A program made the translations under genes and the position numbers. Below the pieces are notes generated by a model. It did no database searches. It was not told the origin of the DNA and worked only from the letters and a program-made list of their open reading frames with translations. Below, piece by piece: positions 562 to 63,721 of a stretch of DNA of 64,000 nucleotides. Each line of letters starts with the position of its first letter. Within the stretch, counting starts at the first letter, position 1. Source of the DNA: Ascidia mentula (lineage: Eukaryota > Chordata > Ascidiacea > Phlebobranchia > Ascidiidae); the NCBI GenBank assembly GCA_947561715.1, contig OX387200.1, forward strand, positions 19,346,501 through 19,410,500, read 5' to 3'.

Positions 562-732
562 GTTCATTTCTGTGGGTAAATGGTGACAAATTGCAGCCAA
601 GTGATTACAGCAATTGGGATCCTACTTTACCAAGCTCACATGTGAATGAGGATTGTGTTGTAACGGGTAGAAACACTCATACATGGAAGGTTGTTGATTG
701 TTCTGATGTACGTCCTTTTATTTGCCAAGAAG
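562..732 (+). CDS. Exon: C-terminal half of CTLD 1
   Basis: The exon follows an AG at 560-561 and ends before GT at 733 (phase 1 in, phase 1 out, 171 nt). It encodes a typical late CTLD segment: LWVNGD near the start, then SNWDP, EDCV, a Trp, VVDC and finally FICQE. These match the conserved WxxG, EDC, DC and FxC positions of the C-type lectin fold. The Gly-Asp-Lys and Asn-Trp context lacks a clear EPN or QPD sugar-binding triplet, so Ca-dependent sugar binding is not evident. The first half of the domain is not in the window. Confidence 0.8.
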
Positions 733-6700: not shown

Positions 6701-9700
6701 GGTCACCAACTTATACTGGACCTGTGGGCAGTAAAGACTGTGTGGTGGTGGACGTTACTGACAAGCGATGGACTGTAGAAGACTGCATCAACATCAAGCA
6801 CAGTTTTGTTTGCATACGAAGTTAGTGACTGGTTGAATATGTATGTGTTTTAGTTGGTAATTCTTCCATGTCTGCAATCAGGATCATAGGCGTCGATTTT
6901 TCAACGTTTTGTAAAATATAATGGGTGACTTTTCCAGATTTTAAAAACACGCAAAAAACATTTCGTCAGTCGTATCGCCCTAAACATAGGAAACGATGCA
7001 AATTCCCTTTCGTGTCAGTTTCTTTTTACACCAAACCATGTTGGTCTAGCACTAAATTTTAAACACTTCGATTATGAACCCTCTTACTGAAAGCGGGACA
7101 TTTTTGTTTCACTTGATCCATTGCAAATTTAGTAATTATGAAGTAACAAACAAATCTATTACGCAACAGTGCCGTTTCTTACCATTATGCTACAACAATT
7201 GTTAACAATCCACGAGGCGCTTGTGTTTGTCATGATTGTGACGATGAAAATAAAGGACTTTTTAAACTACCTTAACGCATAGTATAATGTATGTGGTTTT
7301 TCTGACAATAATTTTTAACTTAAACGAAATACAGAGGTGACAATACATGCACCCCTATTTGTTTGTGAGGGGGGACATGTCACCCCAGTCACCCCTAAAT
7401 CGACGCCTATGATCATGATGGTATATCACTTGAAGACCCTTTTATTTACATTTAAATTAATGGCTTGATGCTTTTGAGTCCAGTTCTTATGTATAATTAA
7501 CAATCTGTTGCTTTTTTATTTTCATTTTTATTTGTCACTGTTTACACTTTAAATTCATTTTGGTTTAAAATTATCAAAAAACAACAGAAATTCGCTTGTA
7601 CTATCTGTTGGCTAAAATCAGAGTTCTTATCGAATTAGCAATGGATCTAGATACATTCGAAACATTTGCTTATGAATTTAAGAGCAGTTAAATGGGCTAT
7701 ACTGTTTTTCTTAATACTTTCCAATTGGTAACTTATTTGTTTGCTTATTTTCTTCTTTAAAAAAAATGATCTCAAAGCATACATCAAACATGTTGTTCTG
7801 TTTTACGAACAGGATATTCAGTTTTTTGTGCAAACTTCTCTGGGCCTCACTCACTTGCAAGTATGAATGGTGTTTGGAGTTTAGTCGGTTGTTTGGCGGA
7901 GGGAGATAAATCCCCTGATAACTTGTCGCCAACTGAAAGAAGTGCACTTTCAGGAATGAACTGCCAGTAAATAGTTGCTTTGTTTGTTTGTTGTTTTTTT
8001 TTGAAATAATTTTCTGTCACAAAATTCGATGATGTTCCAACATCTGCGAACATTTGCTTAAGATATCCCCCCCCCAATGTTGCAAAATAACTTTCTTGGA
8101 GTAGTATAATTGTTTCCAGCCTAAAATGTTTTTCGTGTAACTGACGAGGAAATGCAATCATTTATTTTCCTGAGATAGAATATTTGAATAAGACAGAAAA
8201 TGAGGATGCCAAATGGCGAAATTAATATTTTGGTTAAAAATAAAGATCATACACCGTAGCTGATCGTCCTTTACTCCTTTTGGCGTCTTAGAAATTTCAT
8301 ATATTGATTCACAAAGATACATCTGCCGGTCATCGATCTCAACAGGCTGTTCCCTGCAGTCGTTTTTGACATTTTCTCTAGAAATGCAATTGTTTTTTGC
8401 CCTAAATGTAAGACTTTCTTATCCCAACACAGGGAACTTGAGGCTCACATGCAGTCTTTTAGAGATGATGCAGATACTGGTGACACAGCAGCTCAAACTG
8501 ACTGTTTAGGCATAGGTAACTATTTACTTGCCTAGAATAAGTTGTCAACTCAGATTTTTGAAAATTTCGATAGTTTTGCCAACTTCTTGTCTCAATTATA
8601 ATGGACCACATTCAATGGATTGTCTAAAAGCGGTTTGGATTTCCGTTGGTTGTGTACCAGAGGGTGAAGAATATCCAGAAAATCTTATTAATTCAGAAAT
8701 AAGCAGATTGTCTGGCTTGGATTACCGGTGCGTCAATGGTTGTCATATTTTTTTTACATATATGATTAAATGTCTCCACTTAATATTAACATTGAAGGAC
8801 ACTACAAGCTGAAATGGAGGATGTTAAAGCAGATGCTGACAGCGAGACAACTTCTGGACAACTAAATTGTTTTGGAATAGGTTGGGTTTGATATTCTTAT
8901 GTATGTCTATGGACACTAATTAACTAGTTGAACGTTTAGATTTGCCAATAAATTGTCCAACATATGTCGGTACACATTCCTTGGATTGCCTTAGATATGT
9001 TTGGAGTTCTGTTGGATGTCTCCCTTCAGGAGATGGTCATCCTGATGTACTTTCCAATACCCAAATTTCTGATTTGTCAGCCCTTAATTACAGGTGGCTA
9101 CTTTACTTACACATAACGATACCTTTAGCACAGTGTAATGCAAATATGGATTGATTCAACAAAAAATAAGTTTTTCCTAAAGATACATCAAAATATTTAT
9201 TTTCTTTTAACAGAGCTCTTGTGGACCGAATGAATACTACCAAGATAGAAGCTGATAATGGGAACAATGTTGCTCAAATGAATTGCTATGGGAATGGTAT
9301 GTTATTTTATGATTGCAAATCAGGATGTACCCGCACTGTTTCGACCTGTAAGGTCTCGTCAGTGCAGCTGTTGACAGTGGCACTGTGCTAGCTTTTACAC
9401 TAGCAGGCACAATAATTTTCACTTTGTGGTACCTTTCGGTCAACGTAGATCAGTTGGGTACCCTATACTGAGTACCGAAAAACAGAGACCAACCACTGTG
9501 GAGCGCACTATGGCCAAACGGACCTGCTTGGTAACCAATAGCGCTAAAGGCAAAAACACCAATGCAATATATGCGCAAAAAAAGCCATAATAACATTGGC
9601 GAGCTGCAGACATGGTGTGTACATGCACTGTTTCGACCTGTGAGGTCTCATCAGTGCAGCTGTTGCAGTGGCACTGTGCTAGCTTTTACACTAGCGGGCA

Positions 9701-12700
9701 CAAAAAATTTCACTTTGTGGTACCTTTCGGTCAACGTAGATCAGTTGGGTACCCTATACTGAGTACCGAAAAACAGAGACGAACCACTGTGGAGTGCATT
9801 ATTGCCAAGTTATTATGGCTTTTTGCACATTTTTCTTATTCACATGTAAGATTTTCTTTACATCATTGTGAAAGTTTTGTGAATATTGTTTTGTATGCTT
9901 GAGTGCGACATGGTTCACAACCTTAGTTTTATGTAATAAAATTTAACTATTTACTAACTGAGCTAAATGAACAAATATTTCATCGAGGTTGGGAAATGCT
10001 GTATTAAAACAATTTGTTGAAAATACAAAAACTTTCTAAAAGAACGGTTTAGAATGTACATTAAAATACATGACTGCCTTGAAATCATCCAAGGTTAATT
10101 GGTCTGCAATCAGTAAATTTGTGATTGTGGTAACTTCCTTTAATCAACTTTTTTTTGAAAAGTTTTGCCAGCTGTTTGTCCAAGCTTCACTGGACCGCAT
10201 TCAATGGATTGTTTAAAAGAGGTTTGGGCTTCTGCTGGTTGTTTACCAGAGGGTGACAAATATCCTGCAAAACTTGCTGGTCCGGAATTTACCGATTTGT
10301 CTGACTTGGATTACACGTAAGTTAACAGTTGTCAAAATGTTTCATATTGTTTGCATGTAAATCAAAAATAAAATTTATGGTCATGCATGACCTAAATGTG
10401 ACCGGTAATTACTAACATTTATTTTCATGCGAAGGACATTAGTATCTAGAATGGAAGATGCGAAAGCAGTTGCTGACAGTGGATCAAGTACTGGACAACT
10501 AAATTGTTTTGGAATAAGTTGGGATGGCGTTATTACATACATTTTATAGACATTAACTATCTGGTGTAACATGTAGATTTGCCAAAAAGTTGTCCTACAT
10601 ATAATGGTCCACACTCTGCTGCTTGTCTGAAAATTGTCTGGTCTTCTGTTGGATGTTTGCCTGCTGGAACTGAATATCCTGATAAACTCTCAAATACAGC
10701 AATTGATGGTTTGTCAAAACTTAAGTACAGGTGACTGTTTGTTGATAAGTAACATAATTATGAATTTGTATTGCGATAATGTTTTAAAAAAACTCTGAAA
10801 ACTGACTAAAATAAAATAGGGGAACTACCCCAATTAGCTTTCCAAAAGACATCCTTAAACTGCTGAGATATCCATGGGTATTTTGTAAAAATCTTTGTAT
10901 TTTTTAGGGTGTTATTAAATCAAATGAACACGACTAAAATAAAAGCTGATAATGGAGATGCATCAGAAGTACTTGCATGTTTTGGAACTGGTAAACCTCA
11001 CTTGACACTAAAGACTATTATATTGAGAATTCAATGTTTTTTGCAGCACTTCCTACTTCCTGTACAACATTTAGTGGACCACATTCTTTGGATTGTTTAA
11101 GATCTGTTTGGGATTTGGTTGGTTGTTTACCAGAGGGTGCAGAGTATCCAGACAAGTTGACTCCCACCCAGAGAAATACTCTCTCAAAAATGACTTATAC
11201 GTAATTTTATTTTCTGGGGCATTTAAAATTAATTTGAAAAATGTTAATTGTGTTGGCAGAGTTCTTAGAGCTGAAATGACTTCAACCAAGACAGACGCAG
11301 ATACTGGGAATAACGTTGCCCAATCGAATTGCTTTGGGATAGGTATTCATTCATTTTCAAACTTGCAGTTGTTAATTGGTATAGTGTAGATTAATAAATT
11401 CGTATGTAAGAAAGGTTTTTTCATTACTTTAAAGTTTGGTGATTAATGTTTAACTTGCTTAAAAATTAACATCAACTTTTGGTTCACGACCTTAAATTTA
11501 CCATACAATCACCCTGTACATTTCCAAAATTCTGAATATACTAGGATTGTGGTTGTACTAACTTTTTGTCATTTCCTTTTTTAATAAAGCTTTGTCAAAT
11601 GTTTGCCCAAACTACAATGGACCACATTCAATGGATTGTTTAAAAGAGGTTTGGGCTTCTGCTGGTTGTTTGCCAGAGGGTGAAGAATATCCAGGAAAAC
11701 TTGTGGTTTCAAAATTTAACAGTTTGTCCGGTTTGGATTATCGGTGAGCCAATGGTTGTCAAAGTGTTGTTGCTTTCTGCACATAATAGACACATAAAAA
11801 AATTGATAAAGGGCACTGAAATCTGAAATGGAAGATGTCAAAGCATTAGCTGATGGTGGATCAAACACTGCACAACTAAATTGTTTTGGAACAGGTATAA
11901 TGAATGTTCAAAAAAACTATTTTTTGTAAATCATGTCTGTAATCCGCTCAAATTTTTAGTGTGTATTGGAGAATATCATACTAAAAATCCTAGTTGCAAT
12001 GACTTGGTTTTGTATTTCTATTGCAACAGTAATTTACAAGTACTAATGCACGAAATTGGGCAGAAATTTTTGTTTTTATGTTAATGCTTTCAATTACTTG
12101 TAATGGCACTGATCACTTTTAGGATATAAAAATATGTCACCTTTGGGCGTGATGGTTATAGTAGTATTAAATGCTATTTTTAAAAATCCATATTTTAATG
12201 TGGCTGCATAAGACATCACAATAAGTAATAAAAGAAAAAAGTGTCAACTGGAATTTCAGTACAACGTCCCTATTTTCACCTATGAAAGAATTGGCTCTAA
12301 AAGCTATGATCTTCTTGAAAAAAAATTAAGTTAGATTATGACACTGCAGAACATAAAGTCTAAATTAAAAGGACGTGCTAACTCATGCTGCTGACTAAAG
12401 GAAATTGTTTTTGCATTGTGTTGGAAATGCTCTTGAACTTCTCCGATTTAGGAAAACCACACTTGCATCACTAAACATATCTTACTTGTGTTAGATTGTT
12501 GGCTGTACTTATATATCTCTTGTCTTTACTCTATTTTTCATAACTTGCTCCTTATTGCTACAATAAAATGTATGTATTATTAAAACCACTTTTGGTAAAA
12601 TCTTATCTGCAAAGTAAATACCGCATTTTTATCTTGAAACATTATTTTTGAAATTGTCATAACAAGTAGTTTAAAAAAAATAATCCTGACAAATCAAATC

Positions 12701-21700: not shown

Positions 21701-24700
21701 CGTGTTATACCACATTAATAAATGCCCATCGTTTATTTGTTTCGCTCATGACAGGCTAACCTTAACATAGCATTCTGTTTGGCAATCAAACATTTTTGCC
21801 ATACCGATAAAATACACGAATCAGTGTTAACAAACTGCCGGATCCAAATTATCCGGCCGGATTTGATTGATAACTATCCGGATCCGGCCGGGCCGGATAA
21901 TTTGGAACTGGGAACATCACTAATAAATTTTGAAACAGATTTAAATCATACGTAGCTTGCATATATTTGCTAGACTTTTATATAAAGGACATTAGTTTCT
22001 GAAATGGAAGGTGTTAAAGCATCAGCTGATGGTGGATCAAGTACTGCACAACTAAATTGTTTTGGAACAGGTTAGTTGGTTTGGGTATTTTTGTATCTAT
22101 ATATTTTGCGGACATTAACTATCTGTTGTAATGTTTAGATTTGCCAAAAAGTTGTCCTGCATATAATGGTCCACACTCTGATGCTTGTCTGAAAATTGTC
22201 TGGTCTTCTGTTGGATGTTTGCCTGCTGGAACTGAATATCCTGATAAACTCTCAAATTCTGAAATTACTGCTTTGTCAAAACTTACTTACAGGTGAATAT
22301 TTTGGTGATATTCATCATATTTATATATTTGTATTATTGCATGTGTCTCTTATGAGACAACTCTAATGATGACAAATTCGTCTGACCAAATTTTGGAATT
22401 ATGGCATTAAGACCACTTCATTGTTATGGACTTGATTAACTCTTAAGATAACCCTTATACATCCTTCTTTTCTTCCGATGTGTGTTTAATTTGTTATAAA
22501 GATATTTTTTTTTGATAAATGCTTATGCGATATTTTCTCAGTTTAAAGAAAATAGGTTTGCTTGTTGGGAAAACTAAATGTTTTTTATTTTTTTAGGAAA
22601 TTATTAAATCAAATGAACACAACCAAAGTAGCAGCCGATAATGGAGATGCATCAAAAGTACTTGCATGTTTTGGAACTGGTAAAGATCACTTGAGATAAA
22701 AGACTCTTTTTTTTAGAATTTAATGTTTTCCACAGAACTTGCTACTTCCTGTACAACATTTGGTGGACCACATTCTCTGGATTGTCTGAAATCTGTTTGG
22801 GATTTGGTTGGTTGTTTACCTGAGGGTGCAGAATATCCAGACAAGTTGACTCCCACCCAGAGAAATACTCTCTCAAAAATGACTTATACGTAATTTTGTT
22901 TTCTGCAGCATTTAAAATTATATTCTAATCTTCTTTGTTTCGTTGCACAGAAATCTTGTGACCAAAATGAACTCAACCAAGACTAATGCCGATGGAGGAA
23001 ATAACATTGACCAAAATAGTTGCTATGGAATAGGTATTCATACAGTTTCCTCCCTGTAGTTGTTAATTGCAATGGCGTAGATTATTAAATTATATACAAG
23101 AAAGGTGTTTTCATCATGTCAAAATTTTGTGATATTGGTAAATTTTGTGAATATTTGGTAAAAAATTAACATCAACTTTTGGTTCATAACCTTAAACTGA
23201 TCATGCATTTGCCTAATACCTAATATTCATTACCTTCATTTTCTAGGATTGTGGTTGTACTAACTTTTTGTCATTTCCTTTTTTAATAAAGCTTTGCCAA
23301 ATGTTTGCCCAAATTACAATGGACCACATTCAATGGATTGTTTAAAAGGGGTTTGGGCTTCTGCTGGTTGTTTACCAGAGGGTGAAGAATATCCACCAAA
23401 CCTCGTTGATTCAAAATTTCTCAAATTATCTGGTTCAGATTACCGGCAAGTCAATGGTTTTCAAAGTATTGTTGCTTATAGTGCATAATATGAAAAAATA
23501 ATAATTTTGTATAAAGGACGCTAGTATCTGAAATGAAAAATATCAAGGCAGATGCTGACAGTGGATCACCTACTGGGCAACTAAAATGTTTTGGAATAGG
23601 TTGGCTTCATATATAACTTTTCATATTATCCCATGCACCCTTCCAATTTGTGATGTTGTAGCTAGAAAATACAACTATCCTATTATACTACATGTTTATG
23701 GTTACTTATATGGTGTAACATTAGATTTGCCATCAAATTGCCCTACGTATAATGGTCCTCATTCTATGGATTGTCTCAAAATTGTCTGGTCTTCTGTTGG
23801 ATGTTTGTCTGAAGGAAATGAATATCCTGATAAACTCTCAAATACAGCAATTGATGATTTGTCAGGCCTTACTTACAGGTAACTTTTTATTGATAAGTAA
23901 CACAATTATGTAGTAATGCAAGTGTCAACCATCATTCTTCTTCTTTAGAGTCACATTAGTTTTACAAAGCTATTGTAATATCCTTGCAAACAATCCTAAT
24001 TACTTTAAAACTAAATTAATGCAAAAGTAGAACACTTACTGCCTTACCATCAGTTTCTCCAATTAAAAAAAAAATACATAACAAACAAAATTGCCACTGC
24101 AAAAATGAGGAAATATTTAAGGCGCAATTTTTGTGATCTACTACTTCCCATTTTTTACTTATCGTCATTTCGCCATTACCATTTTGCCTTGACTGCATTT
24201 TACTCTGAAAATGATTGTAGTACAACAATTAAAACATCTCTATCATGAAATTCTCAACTATTGCATTGACTATTTTGCTTGTATTGCAGATTTACAAACC
24301 GTCAGTTATGCTCCTACATACCGTATTTCCTCCATTGTAAGCCGCCGCCTACATTATTTAATGTCGTGCCGATATTTTGTCTGTGCTCTGTATTTTGATG
24401 AAATTTACTATCAACTCGCTCCATCGTATCAATATATTTTATTGCTCAAGACTGTTGGCGTATCTCACAATTTTGAAGGACAGATGTGTTGGCAATTATT
24501 GTTGTGAAGCGCCTAAGTTTGTCTTTAACATTGACATGCGGCTTACATTCAAGGGTGGCTCATATTATTTTTTAACACCGTGGTCATGCGCCTTACAATC
24601 AAGGACGGCTAGCAATCTCGCAAATACAGTATATATAAAGAACTTTGATCAAAAGGACTTTTTTGAACCTGCAAACATCTAAAAATTTATTTCTCAGAAT

Positions 24701-27700
24701 GATCTGAATATTTTTATCATGCAGTGACTTGTTAAATCGAATGACCACAACCAAGTCTGATGCAGATAATGGAGATGCATCAGAGCTGCTTGCTTGTTTT
24801 GGAATTGGTAAACCTTTATTATTTTGCACAAATGTTTTTTAATGTGCATTTATTTTACTTTAGTTCTTTCTGGTTCTTGTACAACTATGGCTGGTCCCCA
24901 TTCCTTAGGTTGTTTGAAAGCTGTTTGGAATTTTGTTGGTTGTTCAATACAAGGGGCAGAGCATCCTGATAAGTTAACTCCTGCCAAAAGACAAACACTC
25001 TCAAAAATGAATTATATGTAAGTTTGGCATTCAAAGCAAATTTGAAATTCTGTAAAAGAATGTTGTTTCTTTTGTAAAGAGATCTTGTGGCCGACATGAA
25101 TTCAACAAAGACTGATGCTGATGCTGGGGATAACAATGCCCAAACAAATTGCTATGGGATAGGTAATTATACAACTTTAATCTTAACATTTATTGACCGA
25201 ATTGGGATAAAGTTATGACTACTGTATGAGGAACATCTCTATTTTTTATTTTGTCATGGTTTTTCATTTTTGAATTTCAATATTTTTTGTGATTGGCTGA
25301 ATGATAGTGATTAATTCATTCCATTGATTTACAACGGCAATTGATGCCAAAAAGCCCTGACTAACTGAGCATGTATTTAATCAGGGTTAACCCTTTTAGC
25401 TTATTTCTTTGGGCATAGAATTGTTGTTCGAAATTGGAGAATCTGCAATCTGTGAGATTATGGTTTCAAAACTTATTATTTACTTTCTTTGATAAAGGTT
25501 TGCCAAATGTTTGTCCAAACTTTAATGGACCACATTCGTTGGACTGCCTGAAGGAGGTTTGGGCTTCTGCTGGTTGTTTACCAGAGGGTGACGAATATCC
25601 GGAAAAACTTGTTCATACACAATTTAACAGATTATCCGGGTTGGATTACCGGTGATTCAACAGTGATGCATTATTTTTTGCCTTTTCATATGAATTTGAA
25701 ACCAATTCAAGTCATATATTACATAATTGTGCTTGCTATGTTATTACTTTTATTTTGATATTAAGGACACTAGTATCTGAAATGGAAGATGTTAAAGCAT
25801 CAGCTGATGGTGGATCAAGTAGTGGACAATTAAACTGCTTTGGAATAGGTTGGGTTTGGCATTCTTATATATATATTATGGACACTAACTATTTGGTGTA
25901 ACTTTAAGATTTGCCAAAAAGTTGTCCTACTTATGGAGGTCCACATTCCAAGGATTGTCTCAAAATTGTCTGGACTTCTGTTGGATGTTTGCCTGCTGGA
26001 ACTGAATATCCTGAGAAACTCTCAAATTCTAAAGCTTCGGATTTGTCACGACTTACTTACAAGTGAATTTGGGTCAATTTCAATTTCTCCAGCAAAAACA
26101 TTATTTTCACAATTTGTTTGACTAAATTTTTGAAATAAAGCATAAGAGCCACGTATATTATTTTGAACTTATTTAACTCTAAGCTAACCTTCATAACATA
26201 ATAATCATGACTCAGTGTGTGTTGAATTTGTTGCAAAGATAAATATTTTATTGATTGAAGCTTTTTTTGAGATTTCTTTCAATTTTGACAAATACTCAAA
26301 AGTTTGTTTGTGGTGTAAACTGAATATTTTTTTAGAGAATTAATAGATCGAATGAACAAAACCAAAGTAGCAGCCGATAATGGAGATGCATCAGAAGTAC
26401 TTGCATGTTTTGGAACTGGTAAACCTCACTTGACACTAAAGACTCTTTTATTCAGAATTTAATGTTTTCCACAGTACTTCCTACTTCCTGTACAACATTT
26501 AGTGGACCACATTCTTTGGATTGTTTAAAAAGTGTTTGGAATTTGGTTGGTTGTTTACCAGAGGGTGCAGAGTATCCAGACAAGTTGACTCCCACCCAGA
26601 GGGATGATCTCATAAAAATGACTTATACGTAATTTTCTTCTATGGGACATTTAAAGTTATTCTCCGAATTTCTTTGTTTCTTTGCACAGAAATCTTGTGA
26701 CCAACATGAATTCCACCAAGACTGAAGCTGATGCTGGAGATAATATTGATCAAAATAATTGCTATGGAATAGGTATTAATTACAACTATAACATCTTCAT
26801 TTGTTTCTTGCAATAAGAAGGAACAATGACCTATGTATATGAAAGTTTGAGTTTGAAAATATTTGATTTTAGGAAAGCTGTAAGAACTATTTTCTGCATT
26901 TTTCTAATATTGATTTTGTTTATTTGTCTGGTTTATCAGAACCAAGCTTTAGTTTGTTACATTTTAGTTACTAACACATGACATATAACCACAATTTAAT
27001 TTAATGAAACTTTTTCTGCCTAAGCAAATATTCAATTGAGATAGGAAAGTAATGTAATCTAACATAACAGAATTTGGTTAAACCGTTTAAATTTGTTTTT
27101 GTTAGATTAGGTTTCAGATTTTGTTTGAATATGTTTGTGTCATTGCTATTGTTTGTGGTTCACATCTTATCAGTAAAAGTCATCTTTATTAAACACATCT
27201 GAGTATCTTGACGATTGGAAAAAGCCTTACACCAATTTTTTTTTACCTTAACCGCTGAAAACTTGGGATTATGTCACATGCGAAACAATGATGGCAGTTA
27301 GTAATGGTTGTTAAAAAGTTTCAGGTAGAGAACTACGTGGTTAAACTAGAATCCAACCACACATACTGGTTGTGAATAAACATGAAATAAACAGGGTTTT
27401 TCATGTGAGTGCACGGTAAGAGAGGTATTCACTCAAATACACGTTCTTATAAAACAATTAATTCTTATCTGGAATTGACAGTGGTCCAGAAACAGTATTT
27501 CAAATTATGAAAAGCTTTTGTTAGAAAAATTATGTTTAACATCAACTTCAAAAAAAAATTGGAAGCAGTTTCCGATAAACAAAATTTAGATTAACCAAGC
27601 TGTGTTGTATTTTATTGCAATCTGTGAAAAGAGTTTTTGAAGAAATGTCCTAGTTTTAGATTGTAGATTTGTGTACAGTAAGATTATGCTTGTATGGTTA

Positions 27701-30700
27701 TTTTATTAACTTTTCGTCCAAAGTTTTGCCATCCATATGCCCAAGCTACAATGGACCACGTTCAATGGATTGTTTAAAAGAGGTTTGGGCTTCTGCTGGA
27801 TGTTTACCAGAGGGTGAGGAATATCCAGGAAATCTTATTGCTTCTGAAGTTGAGAGATTATCCGGCTTGGATTATCGGTGAGTCAGCAAAAATGAATGTT
27901 CATTTAGTGCTTGTATGCATTTACACCAAACTTATGTCGTACACAGCTCAAACATTTTTACCAAATATTTACATTGACCTTTTGTTAAGAACACTTGTAT
28001 CTGAAATGGAAGATATAAAAACAGATGCTGACAGTGGATCATTTAAAGGACAATTAAGCTGTTTTGGAATAGGTAGAGTTTGGTATTCATTTATGTCGAC
28101 AATGAAAATCTACTGTAACGTTTAGGTTTGCCAAACCTCTGTCCTACATATGGAGGTCCACACTCCATGGATTGTCTCAAAAAGGTCTGGTCTTCTGTTG
28201 GATGTTTGCCTGCAGGGAATGAATATCCTGGGAAACTTTCGGATCCTGAATTTTCTATTTTGTCGAATCTTACATACAGGTGTCTGTTTTGTCAATGCAT
28301 ATATTTACACTTTCATTAGTATATGTATTGTGTTTGATTTGATTCAGTTCTGGGGAAAAGTGAATGTTTGTATGTTTTTCAGGGTTTTGTTGAATCGAAT
28401 GAAGAAAACCAAATCTGACGCAGATAGTGGAGATGCATCAGAAGTTCTTGCATGTTTCGGAGCTGGTAAACTTCACATAATAAGAAAAACTTTTATAATA
28501 AATCCAAAATTTTCCACAGTACTTCCCACTTCCTGTACAAAATTTAGTGGACCACATTCTTTAGATTGTTTAAAATCTGTTTGGAATTTGGTTGGTTGTT
28601 TACCAGAGGGTGCAGAATATCCAGATAAGTTGACTACCTCCCAGAGAAATACTCTCTCAAAAATGACTTATACGTAATTTTATTTTTGTTAACCTTTTGT
28701 AAAAGTTTTATAGGTAAGTTAACATTGTTTTTGTTTTTTTCACAGAAATCTTGTGGCCGACATGAATTCAACAAAGACTGAAGCTGATACTGGTAATAAC
28801 AATGCCCAAACAAACTGCTTTGGGATAGGTATGTATGTCATTTTAGTCTTGTTATTTTCTATTTGCAACAACATAGTATGATATTTGTGTAATGGTAAGG
28901 TTTTTAAAGATTCTTGTGTACATGACTATATTAAAGGATCCTACTAGGTTTAACTTTAAAACAGAGGTTCTTAAACTTATTAGGTTCTTGTGTAATCCTT
29001 TAGATCTTTTATGACACTCCCTAATTTATTATTATTGTCAAATCAATGGTTTTTAAAATGTTGTAACAGAATAAGTCCTTTCATAAGAATGTTGGTAATT
29101 GGTTCATTTCTTGAAAAATCCTGGTTTAATTCATGGATTTTTTTTGTAAATGCCCAAAATTCATGAGCCTACTTTCAGTAGTTTTGTTGTTGTACTTCTT
29201 TGAACTACCTCTTTTGAAAAGATTTGCCTGGTGTTTGTCCAACCTTCAATGGACCACATTCAATGGAATGTCTGAATAAGGTTTGGACTTCTGTTGGTTG
29301 TGTACCAGAGGGTGAAGAATATCCAGAAAAACTTATTGATTCAAAAGTTAAGAGATTGTCTGGCTTGGCGTACACGTGAGTCAACGGTGGTCAATGTATT
29401 TTTTTCCTGTTTGAACACAAATTTTGAAAACGGATTTTTATGGTCCATAGCCTAAATATTTGGGCTAGAATTTATACTAAACTTTTATATAAAGGAAACT
29501 AGTTTCTGAAATGGAAACTGTCAAAGCATCGGCTGATGGTGGATCAGTTACTGGACAACTAAATTGTTTTGGGATAGGTTTGGTTTCACATTCTTATCAA
29601 TAAATTGTGGGGACACTAACTATCTGATGTAAATTATAGATTTGCCAAAAAGTTGTCCTACATATAAAGGTCCACATGCCATGAATTGTATCAAATCTGT
29701 CTGGTCTTCTGTTGGATGTTTGCCTGATGGAACTGAATATCCTGAGAAACTCTCAAATCATGAAATTGATGTTTTGTCAGACCTTACATACAAGTGAATT
29801 TTGTGTAAATTGTTATTTATTTAACAAAAACATTATTGTAACAATTTAGTCTAGCAAAGTTTAGGAAATAATGCATTAAAGCAACTTATGTTTTTGGTCT
29901 TGATTAACTCCAAATAACCCTTGTAACATGCTAATATTTACCCAATGTTTCTTGAATTTGTTGTAAAATTTTTTGAGAAAAGCTTTTGTGATATTTTTTT
30001 CAGTTTAAAGAAAACTTTGGTTTGTTTGTAGGAAATGCTAAACGTTTTGTATTGTTGTAGGGAATTATTAAATCAAATGAACACAACCAAAGTAGCAGCC
30101 GATAATGGAGATGCATCAGAAGTACTTGCATGTTTTGGAACTGGTAAACCTCACTTGACACTAAAGACTCTTATATTCAAAATTTAACGTTTTCTGCAGT
30201 ACTTCCCACTTTCTGTACAACTTTCACTGGTCCACATTCTTTGGATTGTCTGAAATCTGTTTGGAATTTGGTTGGTTGTTTACCTGAGGGTGCAGAATAC
30301 CCAGACAATTTGACTTTCTCCCAGAGGGATGATCTCTCAAAAATGACTTACATGTAATTTTGTTTTTTCCGGAGCATTTAAAATTATGTTCTAATCTTTT
30401 TTGTTTCTTTGCACAGAAATCTTGTGGCCAACATGAATTCAACCAAGACTGATGCTGATGGAGGGAATAATATTGACCAAAATAATTGTTATGGGATAGG
30501 TATTTAATACAACTTACCCTTTTTATTTTGTTGAGTGCAATTTAATAGAATAATAACTTATTGACTGGGAAGGTTTGGCATTTTTGTGATGTTGATTTTG
30601 TTTTTCTGTCTGTTTTTTTTTCTGTTTTTCTGTCTATTAAAACCATACTTTATCCTGTTCAATTTGGTTACAAACACATGACTTATTCCTTTACAATGGC

Positions 30701-33700
30701 AATTTAATTGATCAAAACTTTTACTACCCAAGCATGTGTTCAATCAAGATTGCTGAGTAAAGTGGAAAAATGCAACAGATTTGGTTTATCTGGGTTCAGT
30801 TTGTCCATATTAGATGGTGTTCCAGATTGTATGAAGATATTTCTGTCTTGTCTAGTGTTGTGTAGTTAGAAGGATATTAGTAAAAGTAACTGTAATTTTT
30901 GGGCAACTAATACATCTTAGTAGCATCAAGATCAGAAAAAGGCCTGTGACACATTTTTTTTAACCTTGGTCGCTGCAAAAAATTGGGATAAAATGATGAC
31001 AGTTAGTAATAATTATTAAGAAAGTTGTAGGTAGAGAACTATGCAGTTAAACTAGAATCCAAACCACACATATTTGTTATGAATAAACATGAATTATACT
31101 GAGTTATTTATACGAATACAAAGTACAAGACACAAAATTCACTTCAATTCTGATTCTTATATATAAAACAAGCAATTCTTATCTGAAATTAGCATTGATC
31201 CAGAATTCTTTTTCAGATTGTTGATACCAGCCATATTGCATTTTAATTAAACTGTTCTCCTGGCACATTTAAACCTAACGTTTTTTAACAAGCATTTCTC
31301 CTAATGAATAAAAGTTACATTTATTTGTGTTACTAGAGCAGGTTAGTTAAAATTATTTTCACCTATATTGTCATGAAATTTTGCGCAGTTTCCGATAAAC
31401 AGAGTTCAGATTAACCAAGTTCTCTTGCATTGGAGTGACATATGCCAAAGACTTTTTGAGAATGTTTTTTAGTTAAAGATTATAGATTTGTGTACAATAA
31501 GATTATGCTTGTATGGTTATTTTAATTAATTGTTTGTCCAAAGTTTTGCCATCCATTTGCCCAAGCTACAATGGACCTTATTCAATGGATTGTTTGAAAG
31601 AGGTTTGGGCTTTAGCTGGTTGTATACCAGAGGGTGAAGAATATCCAGAAAAACGTATTGATTCTGAACTGAACAGATTGTCCAGTTTGAAATACCGGTG
31701 AGACAGCAAAAATGTGTGCTCATTTATTGCATGCACGTATTTACATAAAATTTCAAAAGTTGTACGTAGCTCTAATGTTTATAGCAAATATTTACATTGA
31801 CCTTTTCTTGTTTAGGAAACTTCTATCCGAAATGGAAGATATAAAAACAGATGCTGACAGTGATTCGCGTACTGGACAACTAAGCTGTTTTGGAATAGGT
31901 TGGATTTGGTATTTATATATGGTATATGATGACACTGACTATCTGGTGTAACGTTTAGATTTGCCACCAAGTTGTCCCACATACGGAGGTCCGCACTCCA
32001 TGGATTGCCTTAAAAAGGTCTGGTCTTCTGTTGGATGTTTACCTGCAGGGGATGGATATCCTGAGAAACTTTCTGATCCTGAATTTGATTTTTTGTCAGA
32101 ACGTCCTTACAGGTGGCTGTTTTGTCAAAGTTTAAAATTTTATGTGTCATGTGTGCTTAGTTTTAGTTTTGGGATAAACTGAATGTGTGTTTTTTTTTCA
32201 GGGTTTTGTTGAATCGAATGAACAAAACCAAATCAGACGCAGATAATGGAGATGCATCAGAAATGCTTGCATGTTTTGGAGCTGGTAAACATCACATAAT
32301 AACAAAAAAAAAATAATAAAAATTTAATTTTTCCACAGTACTTCCTACTTCCTGTGCAACATTTAGTGGACCACATTCTTTAAATTGTCTAAGATCTGTT
32401 TGGAAATCTGTTGGTTGTTTACCTGAGGGTGCAGAATATCCAGACAAGTTGACTCCCACCCAGAGAAATACTCTCTCAAAAATGACTTATACGTAATTTA
32501 TTTTTGTTGACCATTTGAAAAAGATTTATTGGTAAATTAACACTTTTTTGTTTCTTTGCACAGAAATCTTGTGGCCAAAATGAATTTAACCAAGACAGAT
32601 GCTGATACTGGAAATAACATTACCCAAGCCAATTGCTATGGGACATGTATGTGGAATATTACAAAACTATGTATCTTGCTAGCAAACTTTGAAATAGAGG
32701 ATCCTAAATTTATTAGTGTCGTGCAACATCCTCCAGATATGTTTGCGGCACTCCTTATTTGAAAATTATTGTCAAATCAATGTACTTTGAAACATTGTTA
32801 CAGAATAAGTCTTACTTTGATTCATGAAATTGTTTTGTAAATGACCATAATTCAAGAGCCTACTTTTGGTATTGTTGTTTTTAAACTACGTCTTTTAAAA
32901 AGCTTTGCCAGCTGTTTGTCCAACCTTCAATGGACCACATTCGATGAATTGTCTAAAAAGTGTTTGGACTTTTGCTGGGTGTTTACCAGAGGGTGAAGAT
33001 TATCCTGAAAAACGTATTCGTTCTGAAGTTAACAGATTGTCTGGATTGGCATACACGTGAGTCAATGAATGTCGAAATATTTGTTTCTTGTTTAAACATA
33101 AATTTTAGTGATGTGTTGCGCCGGATCTGGGTACCCGGCCCCGGCCGGATATTGACCAATTTTCAATAACCGGACCCAGTCGGATAATACACTTAATTTT
33201 ACCGGATATAGTTGGGAAAGCATTTTTGTCCTAAAAGCGGACAAACATTTCGCAAATTACTCGTTTTTGGGACCCAGTCTGTTATACTTGCCGACGTAAG
33301 ATTTTTGTGTTATTTGTTATTAAGGTTTTTTGTGACTTGTTATACCACATTAATAAATGCCCATCGTTTATTTGTTTCGCTCATGACAGGCTAACCTTAA
33401 CATAGCATTCTGTTTGGCAATCAAACATTTTTGCCATACCGATAAAATACACGAATCAGTGTTAACAAACTGCCGGATCCAAATTATCCGGCCGGATTTG
33501 ATTGATGACTATCCGGATCCGGCCGGGCCGGATAATTTGGAACTGGGAACATCACTAATAAATTTTGAAACAGATTTAAATCATACGTAGCTTGCATATA
33601 TTTGCTAGACTTCACTTTTATATAAAGGACATTAGTTTCTGAAATGGAAGGTGTTAAAGCATCAGCTGATGGTGGATCAAGTACTGCACAACTAAATTGT

Positions 33701-36700
33701 TTTGGAACAGGTTAGTTGGGTTGGGTATTTTTATATCTATATATTTTGAGGACATTAACTATCTGTTGTAATGTTTAGATTTGCCAAAAAGTTGTCCTGC
33801 ATATAATGGTCCACACTCTGATGCTTGTCTGAAAATTGTCTGGTCTTCTGTTGGATGTTTGCCTGCTGGAACTGAATATCCTGATAAACTCTCAAATTCT
33901 GAAATTACTGCTTTGTCAAAACTTACTTACAGGTGAATATTTTGGTGATATTCATCATATTTATATATTTGTATTATTGCATGTGTCTCTTATGAGACAA
34001 CTCTAATGATGACAAATTTGTCTGACCAAATTTTGGAATTATGGCATTAAGACCACTTCATTGTTATGGACTTGATTAACTCTTAAGATAACCCTTATAC
34101 ATCCTTCTTTTCTTCCGATGTGTGTTTAATTTGTTGTAAAGATATTTTTTTTTGATAAATGCTTACGCGATATTTTCTCAGTTTAAAGAAAATAGGTTTG
34201 TTTGTTGGGAAAACTAAATGTTTTTTTAGGAATTTATTAAATCAAATGAACACAACCAAAGTAGCAGCTGATAATGGAGATGCATCAAAAGTACTTGCAT
34301 GTTTTGGAACTGGTAAAGATCACTTGAGATAAAAGACTCTTTTTTTAGAATTTAATGTTTTCCACAGAACTTGCTACTTCCTGTACAACATTTGGTGGAC
34401 CACATTCTCTGGATTGTCTGAAATCTGTTTGGGATTTGGTTGGTTGTTTACCTGAGGGTGCAGAATATCCAGACAAGTTGACTCCCACCCAGAGAAATAC
34501 TCTCTCAAAAATGACTTATACGTAATTTTGTTTTCTGCAGCATTTAAAATTATATTCTAATCTTCTTTGTTTCGTTGCACAGAAATCTTGTGACCAAAAT
34601 GAACTCAACCAAGACTAATGCCGATGGAGGAAATAACATTGACCAAAATAGTTGCTATGGAATAGGTATTCATACAGTTTCCTCCCTGTCATGAAAGTGA
34701 TCAATTAGTAATCTCTTGCTTCAAATAGCCATAACAACCCTAAACTAGCACGAGGATTTCTCCTAAAAAGGGACAAAAGCAACCAAATTCACAAACCGAC
34801 TGCGACCTCGTCAGCGCCAATGAAAACAACGTGTCAGGCTTTTTTACTGACGTCATGCCTCCGTGAGGACTTCTAAGCAGACAATGCTATGACCAATCTC
34901 CACAATCAACCCTAAATTGCCATCAGTCACATCCGTTTAAAAATTAACTAACGTTTCGTACATGATTTAATTAAATCTAAACAACACTTTCAAATTCACC
35001 TGTCACCTTTTTTTGTGCAGACGGTGCTCTGAACATCATAAACTCAATAAAAAAATATCGACATGGCCACTAACGTCAGGCGTATGCTTATTAACAATAA
35101 ACGTTTCACATGCGCAAAACATGAAGTCGACACAACAAATTCATGAGAAAAACAAACTGTCCAAACCTGAAATTGACCAAACTGAAAACTCTGACTGACA
35201 AAAACACAACAAAACTGCAAAAGATCGCTCGTGGGCACCAAAAAGAGAATTTTGATGCCTTAAAGCCACAAACTCGGTGCACCAATTCGAATGTTGCGAC
35301 CTATTATGTCAAATATGAGTCTCGAATTTGGTCTTAACAATTTTATTTATGATCGATGGGAATCCTATTTGATTAGCGCATTTGACATTAGATCGCACGT
35401 GAGTTCTAATTGTTGTGTTTTCCTAACCTGACTTTACTTAACTCTCGATGCAAACACTACACCAATATTTATTTACCACGAACAATTTTGGATACGAAAT
35501 TAACATGCCCAATTATACCAACGCCAAACTGAGTGAATTTATGCCCAAACGTCCAGACAGAATTGAACAAAACCGAATTACAAAATAGTAACCCCTAACT
35601 CGCGCACACTGCAAACCACGCACACTCATTATATAAAGCGAGAATACAAAAGACCAATGATCAGCGGACAGTTTAACAAAAACAGGTTGTTTGAAAGACG
35701 ATACAGGACAGTCACACAAGAAAACGTCTAGCGTCTTAAAAACGCCTTTCATCTCTTATAGCTACCACACCAAACACTTCACACTGGCCAATGAAATCAC
35801 TTGACAACGCAACAGTTGCTTTAAAACTACACAAGTCTTAACATTAATATGACACCAAAACAGTTGAGAAACAGTTGGAAAGGACACATAGGACACAAAT
35901 CACGTGAATACACAACCGTTGCTAACGCTACAGTTTGAAATGAACACGCCTGGCAAGACGACCTACTTATGACTTTACCCAACCCAATGATGAGAAATTC
36001 CGAACAATGACTTACTGGCCATGCAACCTACTTCCATAAATGCACATTGTTATGTAACGTAAAATTACGTCACAAGTTGTTAATTGCCATGGCGTAGATT
36101 ATTAAATTATATGCAAGAAAGGTGTTTTCATCATGTCAAAATTTTGTGATATTGGTAAATTTTGTGAATATTTAGTAAAAAATTGACATCAACTTTTGGT
36201 TCATAACCTTAAATTTATCATGCATTTGCCTAATACCTAATATTCATTACCTTCATTTTCTAGGATTGTGGTTGTACTAACTTTTTGTCATTTCCTTTTT
36301 TAATAAAGCTTTGCCAAATGTTTGCCCAAATTACAATGGACCACATTCAATGGATTGTTTAAAAGAGGTTTGGGCTTCTGCTGGTTGTTTACCAGAGGGT
36401 GAAGAATATCCACCAAACCTTGTTGATTCAAAATTTCTCAAATTATCTGGTTCAGATTACCGGCAAGTCAATGGTTTTCAAAGTATTGTTGCTGATAGTG
36501 CATAATATGAAAAAATAATAATTTTGTATAAAGGACGCTAGTATCTGAAATGAAAAATATCAAGGCAGATGCTGACAGTGGATCACCTACTGGGCAACTA
36601 AAATGTTTTGGAATAGGTTGGCTTCATATATAACTTTTCATATTATCCCATGCACCCTTCCAATTTGTGATGTTGTAGCTAGAAAATACAACTATCCTAT

Positions 36701-51700: not shown

Positions 51701-54700
51701 ACAAACACTCTCAAAAATGAATTATATGTAAGTTTGGCATTCAAAGCAAATTTGAAATTCTGTGAAGGAATGTTGTTTCTTTTGTAAAGAGATCTTGTGG
51801 CCGACATGAATTCAACAAAGACTGATGCTGATGCTGGGGATAACAATGCCCAAACAAATTGCTATGGGATAGGTATTTATACAATCTGATTCTTGACATT
51901 AATTGACTGCATTGGGATGAAGTTATGACTACTGTATGAGGAACATTTGAGTTTTGAATTTGTTTTGAATCTAAATCGTTGTGTGTTTGTCCGAAAGTTA
52001 GTGATCAATTTAACCTATTGATTTACAACAGCAATTTATGACCTTGCAGTTTATTTCTTTGGGCACAAATTAAGATTATGGATGTGGGACTTAAAATTTT
52101 TTTTTGATTAGTTTTGACAGCTGTTTGTCCAAACTTTAATGGACCACATTCAAGGGATTGTCTAAAAGAGGTTTGGGCTTCTGCTGGTTGTTTACCAGAG
52201 GGTGAAGAATATCCAGAAAAACTCATTGCTTCGAAAGTGAACAGATTATCTGGCTTGGATTACCGGTGAGCTAGCAGTAATGCATTATTATTTTGCCTTT
52301 TCATGTGAATTTTGAAACCAAATCATACATCACAAAAATGTGCTTGCTATGTTATTACTTTTGTTTTGATATTAAGGACACTAGTATCTGAAATGAAAGG
52401 TGTTAAAGCATCAGCTGATAATGGATCACGTACTGGACAATTAAATTGTTTTGGAATAGGTTGGGTTTGGCATTCTTATATAACTATATACAGCAGACAC
52501 TGAGTATATGGTGTAACGTTTAGATTTGCCAAACCCTTGTCCCACATACGGAGGTCCACACTCCATGGATTGTCTCAAAATTGTCTGGACTTCTGTTGGA
52601 TGTTTGCCTGCTGGAAATGAATATCCTGGGAAACTTTCAAATTCTGAATTTACTGCCTTGTCACGACTTACTTACAAGTGATTTTTTTGTCAATTGTAAT
52701 TTATTTAACAAAAGCACTTTACCTTAATGGTTGCCCACAAACTTAGGAACACAAATCCAATTTTTTTCATAATTCTGAGTATAAAGAGACTGGCCCATAT
52801 CCAATAACAATATGGGCCAGTCTCTTAATATTCAGAATTATGAGAAAAAGTGAGTTGTGTTCCTATGTCTGACTGAATTTTAGAAATGCAACTTAAATTA
52901 TTTTAAACTTGATTAACTCTAAAGCAACTCTCATAACATGCTAATTGTGAATCAGTTTGTCTTGAATTTATTGTAGATACATACTTTATTGATAAAAGTT
53001 TTCTTTTACATTTTTGAAGAAAAATTTTTTTTTTTAGGGTTAAGCTAAATGTTTTTTTTAGGAAATTATTAAATCAAATGAACACAACTAAAATAGAAGC
53101 TGATAATGGAGATGCATCAGAAGTACTTGCATGTTTTGGAACTGGTAAACCTCACTTGACACTAAAGACTATTATATTCAGAATTTAATGTTTTCCACAG
53201 CACTTCCTACTTCCTGTACAACATTTAGTGGTCCACATTCTTTGGATTGTTTGAAATATGTTTGGAATTTGGTAGGTTGCTTACCTGAAGGTGCAGAATA
53301 CCCAGACAATTTGACTTCCTCCCAGAGGGATGATCTCTCAAAAATGACTTATACGTAATTTTCTTCTATGGGACATTTAAACTTATTCTCTGAATTTCTT
53401 TGTTTCCTTGCACAGAAATCTTGTGACCCAAATGAATTCGACGAAGACTGAAGCTGATGATGGGAATAATATTGAGCAAAATAATTGCTATGGGATAGGT
53501 ATGAATTACCACTTCTCTTTTGTTTTTTGATTGCTGTAGAATAAAACAATACCGTATTAATAGGAAAGGTTTTCTCTAAAAATTCTTGTATTACAAAACT
53601 CTGTTGTATGTGGTTGAAACATCAAAACCATTTTTTGGAAAATGTCTTAGTTTAAGATTGTGGATTTTTCTACCATAAGATTATACTTGTATGGTTGTTT
53701 TAATTAAATTTTTGTCCAAAGTTTTGCCACGCGTTTGCCCAAGCTACAATGGACCACATTCAATGGATTGTTTGAAAGAGGTTTGGGCTTTTGCTGGTTG
53801 TTTACCAGAGGGTGAAGAATATCCACCAAGCCTTGTTGATTCACAAGTTAACAGATTATCTGATTTGGATTACCGGTAAGTCATTAAAAATTTATGCTGA
53901 TATATTTCATGTATCAAGTTTAAGTTCAAACGTTTTTTCCCATTACTTGCATTCACCCTTTTTGGTGAAGGATACTTGTGTCTGAAATGGAGTATATATT
54001 TGTGGAAAATGATTAATTTTGTTGTATTGTGGTAATATTAAATGCAATAGCATGATAGGCAGGATTGCCCCACTGCGCAGGTACTTGCTTGGCGATCACA
54101 GCTAACATATCGCGATCATGAGGTTTTCAGGCTTGGCAGCCCAGGCAATGCAGCCCAGCTGAATCATTTTTGGTAGCTGTGATCGCCAACCAAGTACCTG
54201 CACAGTGGGGTGATCCTGCCTATCATACTATTGCATGTAATATTACTGCGTTACCTGATACGATGGTAGAGATCCCCTATGTAAATGTGAAGGTTGCCTG
54301 GCAATTTGTGCGCTTGCGTACCAGTGTACCTTGGCCACAATATAACCCGTGAAGCCACTGAGCTTCTGTAGTTCAGTTGGTAGAGCGTTGGGCCTGGTTA
54401 GCCCAGGGTCGTGAGTTCAAACCTCACCGGGAGATTGATTTTTCAAATCTTGCTTCCGACTTGTCAGGAAAAAGTGGCTGATCCAGCTAGGCTGCATTGC
54501 CTGGGCTGCCTAGCCTGAAAACCTCATGATGTTTTGTATTGTTGTAGGGAATTAACAGATGAAATGAACACAACAAAAACAGATGCTGACAGTGGATCGC
54601 CTACTGAACAACTAAACTGTTTTGGAATAGGTTTGGTTTGCTGTTTATGTTTAGTATATGTCCGCACTGACTGTCTGGTGTAACATTTAGATTTGCCAAA

Positions 54701-60700: not shown

Positions 60701-63700
60701 ATGAAAATCAACTTTTAGCAGTTGGTGCAGAAGACGAGGTTATTCTTTAAGCGTCAAAAAGGCTGTATGATAGGATTAGATCCAACCCAGTACATGTTTT
60801 GCTTAAATTGATTGCGTATAAAGAGATGATATACCAAAATTTGTTTCAGCTTATTGGGCCGAATTAATTTGGCAACTTTTGCCGAATATTCGGTTTGGCC
60901 GAATACAAAAATAGCTGTTTCGGTGCATCACTAGTTTTATTGACAAAAGCGTTTGTGAGATTACTTTTAGTTTTGTGAAGACGAAAGTTTGTTTGTAAGG
61001 TAAACTTACTGTTTTTTTTAGAAAATTAATAGGTCAAATGAACACAACCAAAGTAGAAGCTGATAGTGGAGATGCATCACAAGTGCTTGCATGTTATGGA
61101 ACTGGTAAACCTCACTTGACACTAAAGACTCTTTTGTTGAGAATTTAATGTTTTCTGCAGTACTTCCTACTTCCTGTACAACATTTAGTGGACCACATTC
61201 TTTGGATTGTTTGAAATCTGTTTGGGATTTGGTTGGTTGTTTGCCACAAGGTGCAGAATACCCAGACAATTTGACTTCCTCCCAGAGGGATGATTTGTCA
61301 AAAATGACTTATAAGTAATTTATTTTTGTTGACCATTTGTAAAAGATTTATTGGTAAGTTAACATTGTTTTGTTTCTTTGCACAGAGATCTTGTGGCCTA
61401 CATGACTTCAACCAAGACTGATGCTGATACAGGGAATAACATAGAACAGAATAATTGCTATGGAATAGGTGTGAATTACAACTTTAACTTCTTCATTTTT
61501 TGATTTTAATAGGATAGAACAATAATCTATGTATGAGAATGTTTTTGCTTAAAAATACTTTGTTAAAAACTTTTACTACCTAAGAATGTATTCAATTAAG
61601 ATTGAGAACTAAAGTAATAAAATACAACAGAATTTGGGTTAATCCTGATTCAATGTTTCGATGTTGTTTTAGATTGTTTGCAGATGTTTCTGTCATTGCT
61701 TTTGTTGTGTAGTTTACACGATAATAGTAAAAGTGATCTTAATTAAAGACATCTTAGTATCTCCAAGATTAGAAACAGCCCTGCAACAACCTTATCGCTG
61801 AATAAATTTGTTAACCTTGATCGCTGAATAAACTTGGGATTATGTCACATGCGAAACATTGATGGCAGTTAGTAATGGTTGTTAAAAGTTGCAGGTAGAG
61901 AACTACGTGGTTAAACTAGAATCCAACCACACATACTTGTTGTAAATATACATTAATTACCAGAGTTCTGTATATGAATGCAAAATAAAACAAAAGTTCA
62001 CTCAAATCCTGATTCCCTATGTGTAAAACAAGCAATACTTATCTGGAATTGGTAATGCTCCAGAATTTGTATTCCATTTCATAATAAGCATTTTTTTGGG
62101 AAAATAGTAGTAATATGTTGCTGTTGCTGAAAGGCATTTTGCATTTCAATTGATTTGATCTTCTGGTACATTTAAACCTAACTTTTTTTCACCGTTGTTT
62201 CACCTAGAAAATAAAAGTTATGTTTGATTGTACCAGGAAAACTTATTAATAAAAAATATGTTTACCTTAAACTGGATAAAAAATTGGAGCTGTTTCCCAT
62301 ATACAAAATTTAGATGAACTAAGCTCTGTTGTATTGGTTGAATAGTATCAAAAGAAGCTTTTGTTATGAAAATTACGTTTTCCTTCAACTTAATAAAAAA
62401 ATTGAGCAGTTTCCAATAAACAGACTTTAGATGAACTAAGATGTGTTGTATTTAATTGGAAAGTTTGAAAAGTCTTTTTGATGAAATTTCGTTTAAGATT
62501 ATTGATTGGTGTACAGAACGATTGTGTTTGTGTGCTTGTTTTAATTAACGTTTTGTCTAAAGTTTTGCCACGCATTTGCCCAAGCTACAATGGACCACAT
62601 TCAATGGATTGTTTAAAAGAGGTTTGGGCTTTTGCTGGTTGTTTACCAGAGGGTGAAGAATATCCACCAAACCTCGTTGATTCACAAGTTAACAGATTGT
62701 CCGGTTTGAATTATCGGTAAGTCATTAAAAATTTTTGCTGATATATTTCATGTATCAAGTTTAAGTTCAAACGTTTTTTCCCATTACTTACAATCACCCT
62801 TTTTGGTGAAGGATACTTGTGTCTGAAATGGAGTATATATTTGTAGGAAATGATAAATGTTTTGTACTGTTGTAGGGAATTAACAGATGAAATGAACACA
62901 ACAAAAGCAGATGCTGACAGTGGATCGCCTACTGAACAACTAAACTGTTTTGGAATAGGTTTGGTTTAGTGTTTATGTTTAGTATATGTCCACACTGACT
63001 ATCTGATGTAACGTTTAGATTTGCCAAACCCTTGTCCCACATACGGAGGTCCACACACCATGGATTGTCTTAAAAAGGTCTGGTCTTCTGTTGGATGTTT
63101 ACCTGCAGGGGATGAGTATCCTGAGAAACTTTCTGATGTTGAATTTGATTTTTTGTCAGAACGTACTTACCGGTAACTGTTTTGTTGATGTGCACTATTA
63201 CCATTGCATTAGTATGTGTATCATATGTGCTTAGTTTCAGTTCTGGTGAAAAGTGAATGTTTATATATTTTTCAGGGTTTTGTTGAGTAAAATGAACAAA
63301 ACCAAATCAGATGCAGATAATGGAGATGCATCAGAAGTGCTTGCATGTTTTGGAGCTGGTAAACTTCACATAATAAGAAAAACTTTTATAATAAATCCAA
63401 AATTTTCCACAGTACTTCCCACTTCCTGTACAACATTTAGTGGACCACATTCTTTAGATTGTTTAAGATCTGTTTGGAATTCTGTTGGTTGTTTACCTGA
63501 GGGTGCAGAATACCCAGACAAGTTGACTCCCACCCAGAGAAATACTCTCTCAAAAATGACTTATATGTAATTTTGTTTTTGTTCACCCTTTGTAAAAGAT
63601 TTATAGGTAAGTTAACATTTTTTTGTTTCTTTGCACAGAAATCTTGTGGCCAGCATGAATTTAACCAAGACAGATGCTGATACTGGAGATGACGTTGCCC

Positions 63701-63721: not shown

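Follow-up and report, generated by a model that had tools for sequence, protein, structure and literature searches.

The window analysed here, a stretch of 64,000 nucleotides of the Ascidia mentula genome (assembly GCA_947561715.1, contig OX387200.1, positions 19,346,501 to 19,410,500 of the forward strand), opens with exons of C-type-lectin and EGF-like domains and is then occupied by an array of a four-cysteine domain, each copy of which is encoded by a pair of exons, A and B (Table 1). Its G+C content is 32-36% in 4-kb steps. The array runs past the window edge to window coordinate 172,720 and holds 271 copies over ~165 kb (7813-172,720), the whole being 3.3 times as long as the share found in the window. 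It belongs to the first of three paralogous genes on this contig, and the protein that it appears to encode ranks, among those predicted in animals, with the largest.

Table 1. Features of the locus and of the paralogous genes (window coordinates unless given in Mb; negative values lie upstream of the window)
Feature	Position	Strand	Evidence and remarks
Gene 1	OX387200.1, about 19.344-19.548 Mb	+	271 domains
Gene 2	OX387200.1, about 18.986-18.928 Mb	-	39 domains read
Gene 3	OX387200.1, about 18.997-19.122 Mb	+	at least 58 exon-A matches
First C-type lectin domain seen, earlier exons	about -2378 to -2075	+	upstream of the window
First C-type lectin domain seen, last exon	562-732	+	Pfam Lectin_C E=2.3e-16 on hand-joined pieces; kept in gene 2
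EGF-like exon, phase 1-1	1056-1163	+	exon chain; Pfam EGF below cut-off; similar exon after the array
Two C-type-lectin-like domains	1223-1318, 1530-1724, 1836-2032, 2427-2622, 2910-3059, 3244-3441	+	Pfam Lectin_C E=2.4e-19, 2 stretches (1223-3441); exon chain; paralogues in genes 2 and 3
Variant four-cysteine domain, intron elsewhere	3835-3908 and 4733-4880	+	exon chain, by eye
C-type lectin domain just before the array	5045-5174, about 5543-5660, 6641-6820	+	Pfam Lectin_C E=1.6e-12; kept in gene 2
81 complete four-cysteine domains of gene 1	7813-63721	+	exon scans, profile caller; no decayed copies between
First array domain	7813-8515	+	Cys17 missing, Cys51 gained; exon A residues are those of the first exon A of gene 2
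Tandem duplication, 18-domain block	13024-34689	+	13024-23057 matches 24648-34689

The repeat domain and its exons

The array was first detected by a scan for AG-exon-GT units; exon A was scanned at all lengths from 142 to 169 nt in one scan, so that a length of 154 nt was not forced there. A later caller used a separate profile for each exon type and returned the order A-B-A-B. This profile caller takes stop-free exons in steps of three only, so the absence of stops and the open frame of its calls are partly built in, and a broken copy could not have shown. As a control independent of it, the array (7,700-172,000) was searched by tblastn, after masking of the called exons, with pieces from every ninth copy, 31 of exon A and 31 of exon B, and no decayed copy was found at E <= 0.01. 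The introns hold 0.062 stops per codon over the three frames.

The first-pass annotation had described an 81-copy array in the window, and this count stands, each of the 81 pairs consisting of a 154-nt and an 83-nt exon (79 residues, phases 1-2-1). It had given 79 residues for 80 of the 81 copies; the fixed length is right but the odd copy is not, as all 81 conform once the acceptor at 7813 is used. The choice of an acceptor at 7822, where the one at 7813 gives an exon of 154 nt, would explain it. The near-invariance noticed for Cys6, Cys17, Trp22, Cys27 and Cys76 is likewise borne out, all being present in 81 of 81 copies save Cys17 (80/81). The first copies of genes 1 and 2 are alike in having lost Cys17 and gained Cys51, an exchange which hints that position 51 may lie near the partner of Cys17. 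Introns in the window measure 58-846 nt within domains and 53-2736 nt between them.

Over the 271 copies, the domain has 79 residues in 262 and 76-83 in the other nine. The four-cysteine pattern is kept in 270, the first copy being the exception (the status of the last copy depends on how it is read), and a spare cysteine is found in a single copy. Both exons have GT donors in 264 copies, and one exon has a GC donor in seven; in the window, GC donors were seen on two of the 81 A exons (those at 23292 and 36309, with donors after 23445 and 36462), which are duplicate copies. There are 1.3 N-glycosylation sequons per domain, and the product of the array would comprise 21,408 residues (2.36 MDa, pI 4.7).

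The 271 A-B pairs alternate, save for low-scoring extras and one false B exon at 9585, which goes back to a bogus peptide from 9585 among the sequences that trained the B profile. These surplus B calls, the false B exon and a 133-nt A call at 108,342 were left out of the count. For the last copy, the pairing made by the script, of an exon at 171,954 with the B exon at 172,632, was rejected by eye. Judged in the same way, this B exon more probably belongs to a variant domain at 172,322-172,720, and 171,954-172,169 reads as a whole domain in a single 216-nt exon.

Two further elements were noticed between the array exons. A ~200-bp stretch lying between the first two of them (8180-8380) is matched at places on several further contigs, with 40 of 313 candidates scored, and probably represents a short interspersed repeat. 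An array intron contains, at 54361-54436, a sequence resembling tRNA-Thr (anticodon ggt), which may be a tRNA-derived repeat.

The domain had been called unrecognised, and the searches agree, no relative having been found in Pfam-A, among PDB sequences or among PDB folds. In Pfam-A, one copy and one exon A matched no family, and 20 diverse copies (of 34 chosen) gave stray single matches only, each in one of the 20 (best E 0.0042). The profile found no relative among PDB sequences (best E 0.29, a histone deacetylase-like protein), Foldseek of the domain model gave no match among PDB folds (best E 1.3), and none was found in the prokaryote genomes and viral contigs scanned with one copy. Two of the checks proposed at first, a profile or domain-database search and a fold prediction, ended without a named family in Pfam-A or the PDB, and with a three-helix model to which the PDB holds no fold match. 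This model is of moderate confidence (mean pLDDT 72.6, pTM 0.56; other models pLDDT 62-68). Its query was the single-exon copy at 171,954-172,169, with an alignment of 49 exon-A pieces from which the exon-B pieces and three variant exons, being misaligned, were removed; since the query copy is divergent and its last third is without aligned relatives, the predicted fold is tentative. The core of the repeat may loosely resemble the CLxxxW..GC repeats of other animals, as the first-pass annotation had suggested.

Recent growth and old constraint

The strict length of the domain had been ascribed to structural constraint, to homogenisation, or to both. It is both, split along the array: the ~100 first copies are recent, and ~165 others are older and under constraint. 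In copies 1-83, mean protein identity reaches 0.69, 0.76 and 0.85 at lags of 3, 6 and 18 domains, and is about 0.50 where the lag is not divisible by 3. The 18-domain block is duplicated in tandem with 96.6% identity over 10,078 columns, at an offset of 11,624 bp, and the introns of the two copies (n=21) differ by 5.4%. A trace of a 6-domain period is seen in copies 113-230 (0.53 versus 0.45), and copies 231-269 have no clear period. For nearest-copy pairs along the array, dS is 0.08, 0.20, 0.68, 1.19 and 1.60, with dN/dS of 0.45, 0.44, 0.32, 0.30 and 0.16, the ratio being 0.42-0.45 in recent pairs and 0.16-0.32 in old ones. Recent growth by nested units of 3, 6 and 18 domains gave rise to the first ~100 copies (dS 0.08-0.20), and purifying selection acts across the whole array, its oldest part included.

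Among the old copies 105-268, many of which are near synonymous saturation, 158 of 164 retain a length of exactly 79 residues; throughout these 158, C6, C17, W22, C27, G31, C76 and G78 are invariant. Recent homogenisation cannot explain a fixed length in copies so close to saturation, and structural constraint can.

An intron of the second 18-domain block carries a 1.39-kb insertion (34690-36074) that the first block lacks, the corresponding empty stretch lying near 23,057. Places on nine numbered contigs match parts of it, with identities of up to 98-99%, and apart from the insertion itself no match is full-length (40 of 359 candidates scored); it probably consists of recent transposable elements.

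Exons on either side of the array

Beyond the array, the gene was followed with a simple exon-chain program, for which the splice sites and codons of the array served as training data. It gives in-phase chains only, and agreement of phase is therefore partly built in. In a trial on the array itself (30,000-34,000), it returned six of six A exons and five of six B exons exactly, the remaining B exon being too long, and added three short false exons, so that weak exons elsewhere in the chain are unreliable. Some of the Pfam query pieces were joined by hand from ORFs.

On the upstream side, the chain leads from exons of C-type-lectin and EGF-like type into the first exon of the array, in phase 1, and Lectin_C is above the Pfam cut-off in three of three pieces (E 2.4e-19 to 1.6e-12). 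The middle piece of the lectin domain that precedes the array was taken from an ORF, the exon chain not having picked it. The variant four-cysteine domain has a counterpart past the array, at 176,626-177,213. A start exon and a signal peptide were sought upstream and no convincing one was found; homology with gene 2 sets in near -3.7 kb. A separate ORF, C-type-lectin-like and with a hydrophobic segment, was seen by eye still farther upstream, at about -27,464 to -26,766 on the strand of the giant gene, which probably does not extend beyond it in the 5' direction. An upstream stretch is also repeated, at about -22,300 and -17,100, with the same ORF translations at a 5,215-base offset.

Past the array, the chain runs through a second EGF/lectin module, homologous to the first, then through lectin-like and ricin-like pieces, Sushi and F5/8C domains, and a last ORF ending at 201,214. 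All three module pieces are above the cut-off for Lectin_C (E 2e-17 to 1.5e-8). A further lectin-like piece at 178-179 kb and the ricin-like and EGF-like pieces are below the Pfam cut-off, and a piece at about 180.1-180.9 kb has no Pfam match. Sushi was found in 22 stretches (E=9.7e-108) on the 181-197 kb chain taken without the ricin-like piece, most of the strong Sushi exons being of phase 1-1, and F5_F8_type_C scored 32.3 bits against a cut-off of 28.2 (E=1.2e-7) on hand-joined pieces. Five hydrophobic segments (hydropathy >1.4 in a 19-residue scan) precede the stop, laid out as one segment, a soluble stretch and four more. An AATAAA lies ~70 nt past the stop, which says little as the word is common here (1.2-1.3 per kb).

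Three genes with the same order

In a search of the genome (195.8 Mb, 79 contigs), the last ORF (429 residues) had three matches at E <= 0.01, namely itself and two others at 41% and 38% identity. All three lie on the same strand as, and downstream of, an array of the four-cysteine domain, and in each of the three genes a lectin module precedes the array and again succeeds it. Such an order, conserved through two duplications, is as predicted if these parts form one gene. Gene 3 was placed by matches only, not read through, and has the lectin module at two upstream places (18.997 and 19.007 Mb). The repeat matches listed all fall in this part of OX387200.1 (150 of 892 candidates scored), and copies elsewhere are possible.

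In gene 2, domain pairs lie about 1.05 kb apart, and the matches of gene 3 have spacings of about 6.02 kb and about 0.72 kb; each paralogue seems to grow by a unit size of its own, different from that of gene 1. The same genome contains two GH6 glycosyl hydrolase places over the cut-off, one with a TGA inside. Among animals, GH6 is regarded as a mark of tunicates, and these places point to a tunicate genome.

Discussion

We propose that there is one giant gene, in which the array encodes the stalk, and that the product is probably a membrane-anchored protein of ~26,000 residues whose disulphide-braced stalk carries lectin heads. The size is the sum of the 21,408 residues of the array and, by the exon chain, a rough 700 before and 3,900 after it. 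Such a protein, if read from one transcript, would begin with C-type-lectin and EGF-like domains, continue through the 271 four-cysteine domains into the second lectin/EGF module, and end with the lectin-like and ricin-like pieces, 22 Sushi repeats, the F5/8C domain and five hydrophobic segments, which hydropathy predicts to lie in the membrane. With its fixed length, its four cysteines and almost no spare cysteine, each 79-residue domain could form a compact disulphide-braced bead. A compact bead of 9 kDa measures roughly 2.5-3 nm, and 271 such beads would reach about 0.7-0.8 micrometre. The beads might build a stalk several tenths of a micrometre long, holding the sugar-binding heads far from the cell surface. 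The working of the protein would most likely be mechanical and adhesive. Glycans on the tunic, in mucus, on eggs or sperm, or on microbes are all candidate ligands of its lectin heads, none being favoured, and splicing of the symmetrical cassettes may set the length of the stalk.

This last property leads to another reading, in which the exons are real and most transcripts use few of them, alternative splicing dropping whole two-exon phase 1-1 cassettes to give a family of lengths. The cassettes are symmetrical for all called domains, and the omission of any one of them would keep the reading frame. The array-wide purifying selection and the absence of decayed copies argue that the exons are used, though the number used at once is given by neither. 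We consider it unlikely, while far from negligible, that most transcripts are short.

The first-pass annotation had foreseen an exceptionally long secreted filament. The array does look extracellular, with its four cysteines and 1.3 sequons per domain. However, the same-strand run from the array ends in F5/8C and five hydrophobic segments, and the order of lectin module, array, lectin module and C-terminal ORF is common to three genes. A filament of the repeat devoid of a membrane anchor is thus improbable, and we find this part of the earlier description unsupported.

The C-terminal layout, one hydrophobic segment followed by a soluble stretch and four more, recalls that of polycystin-1-like proteins. 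The order of transmembrane segments around a soluble stretch is possibly similar in s-Themis, the sperm receptors of ascidian self-sterility. s-Themis-A and -B are described as polycystin-1-like, with a PKD channel in the B type only (PMC7018956). The gene might then encode a receptor of this kind, akin to s-Themis, with a hugely extended ectodomain serving gamete or self recognition. We first read the C-terminal stretch as the PLAT domain of a polycystin-1-like protein, and the Pfam and PDB searches did not support it: the soluble stretch has no Pfam match up to E 10, PLAT/LH2 included, a PLAT scan of the genome gives no place at 19.546 Mb of OX387200.1, and the C-terminal 499 residues have no PDB relative, the two matches being at chance level (best E 0.91). 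Neither REJ nor GPS was matched in the pieces scanned, which cover part of the exons. Taken together, these results make such a receptor quite doubtful.

Part of the copy number could also be an artefact of assembly, through false duplication of haplotypes, and the 5.4% difference in the 21 introns of the 18-domain copies could be allelic in an ascidian. Nevertheless, these copies stand in tandem in one contig, one with the 1.39-kb insertion and the other without it, and copies 105-268 are far too diverged for alleles. In addition, kaAscMent1.1 is described as a PacBio assembly of QV 64.9 (PMC11109543), which bears on the present sequence if the two are the same genome. An artefact of this kind is very improbable. 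Finally, an array that codes for no protein, satellite-like or made of pseudogenes whose copies unequal crossing over keeps similar, which the recent amplification in nested units might suggest, is already contradicted by the lack of decayed copies despite 0.062 stops per codon in the introns and by a dN/dS well below 1 even between copies near synonymous saturation.

Returning to the membrane-anchored stalk, a wider proposal can be made, to which we hold more tentatively. The domain may represent a new extracellular family and the array the longest cell-surface stalk known, in a single membrane-anchored protein of nearly 3 MDa that would act as a sub-micrometre to micrometre tether with lectin heads. 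The three paralogous genes, on one tunicate chromosome, would then differ mainly in the length of the stalk (271, 39 and at least 58 domains), and stalk length itself would be the evolving trait. If it is transcribed as one unit, the gene would encode one of the largest proteins known, from a domain that Pfam-A does not describe, and to our knowledge the largest membrane-anchored one. The three neighbours share their ends and differ greatly in array length, and one array carries an age gradient; together they would offer a natural experiment in the growth of repeat number and in the way selection keeps domain length and cysteines during the turnover of copies.

Comparison with known systems

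Giant modular proteins as such are known. We know of no earlier case of the stalk domain, of its copy number in an extracellular membrane protein, or of the three-gene set, and our literature searches on giant tunicate proteins, on lectin, Sushi and giant ascidian proteins, and on tandem cysteine-domain arrays returned nothing on this gene. The closest systems are of three kinds. Cell-surface proteins with lectin, Sushi and F5/8C domains (PF00059, PF00084, PF00754) share with it these domains, which are above cut-off around the array; a 271-copy array of a further domain appeared in no member listed by the literature searches, and no such protein is known to us. s-Themis is likewise a tunicate membrane protein (PMC7018956), whereas the giant gene has no PLAT/LH2 match and no REJ or GPS in the pieces scanned, and carries the repeat stalk with Sushi and F5/8C domains in their place. 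Hundreds of small domains chained with nested super-repeats are also found in titin and other giant modular proteins. The ascidian stalk would differ from these in being extracellular and disulphide-rich, in its domain without Pfam relative, in its lectin ends and in its predicted membrane anchor.
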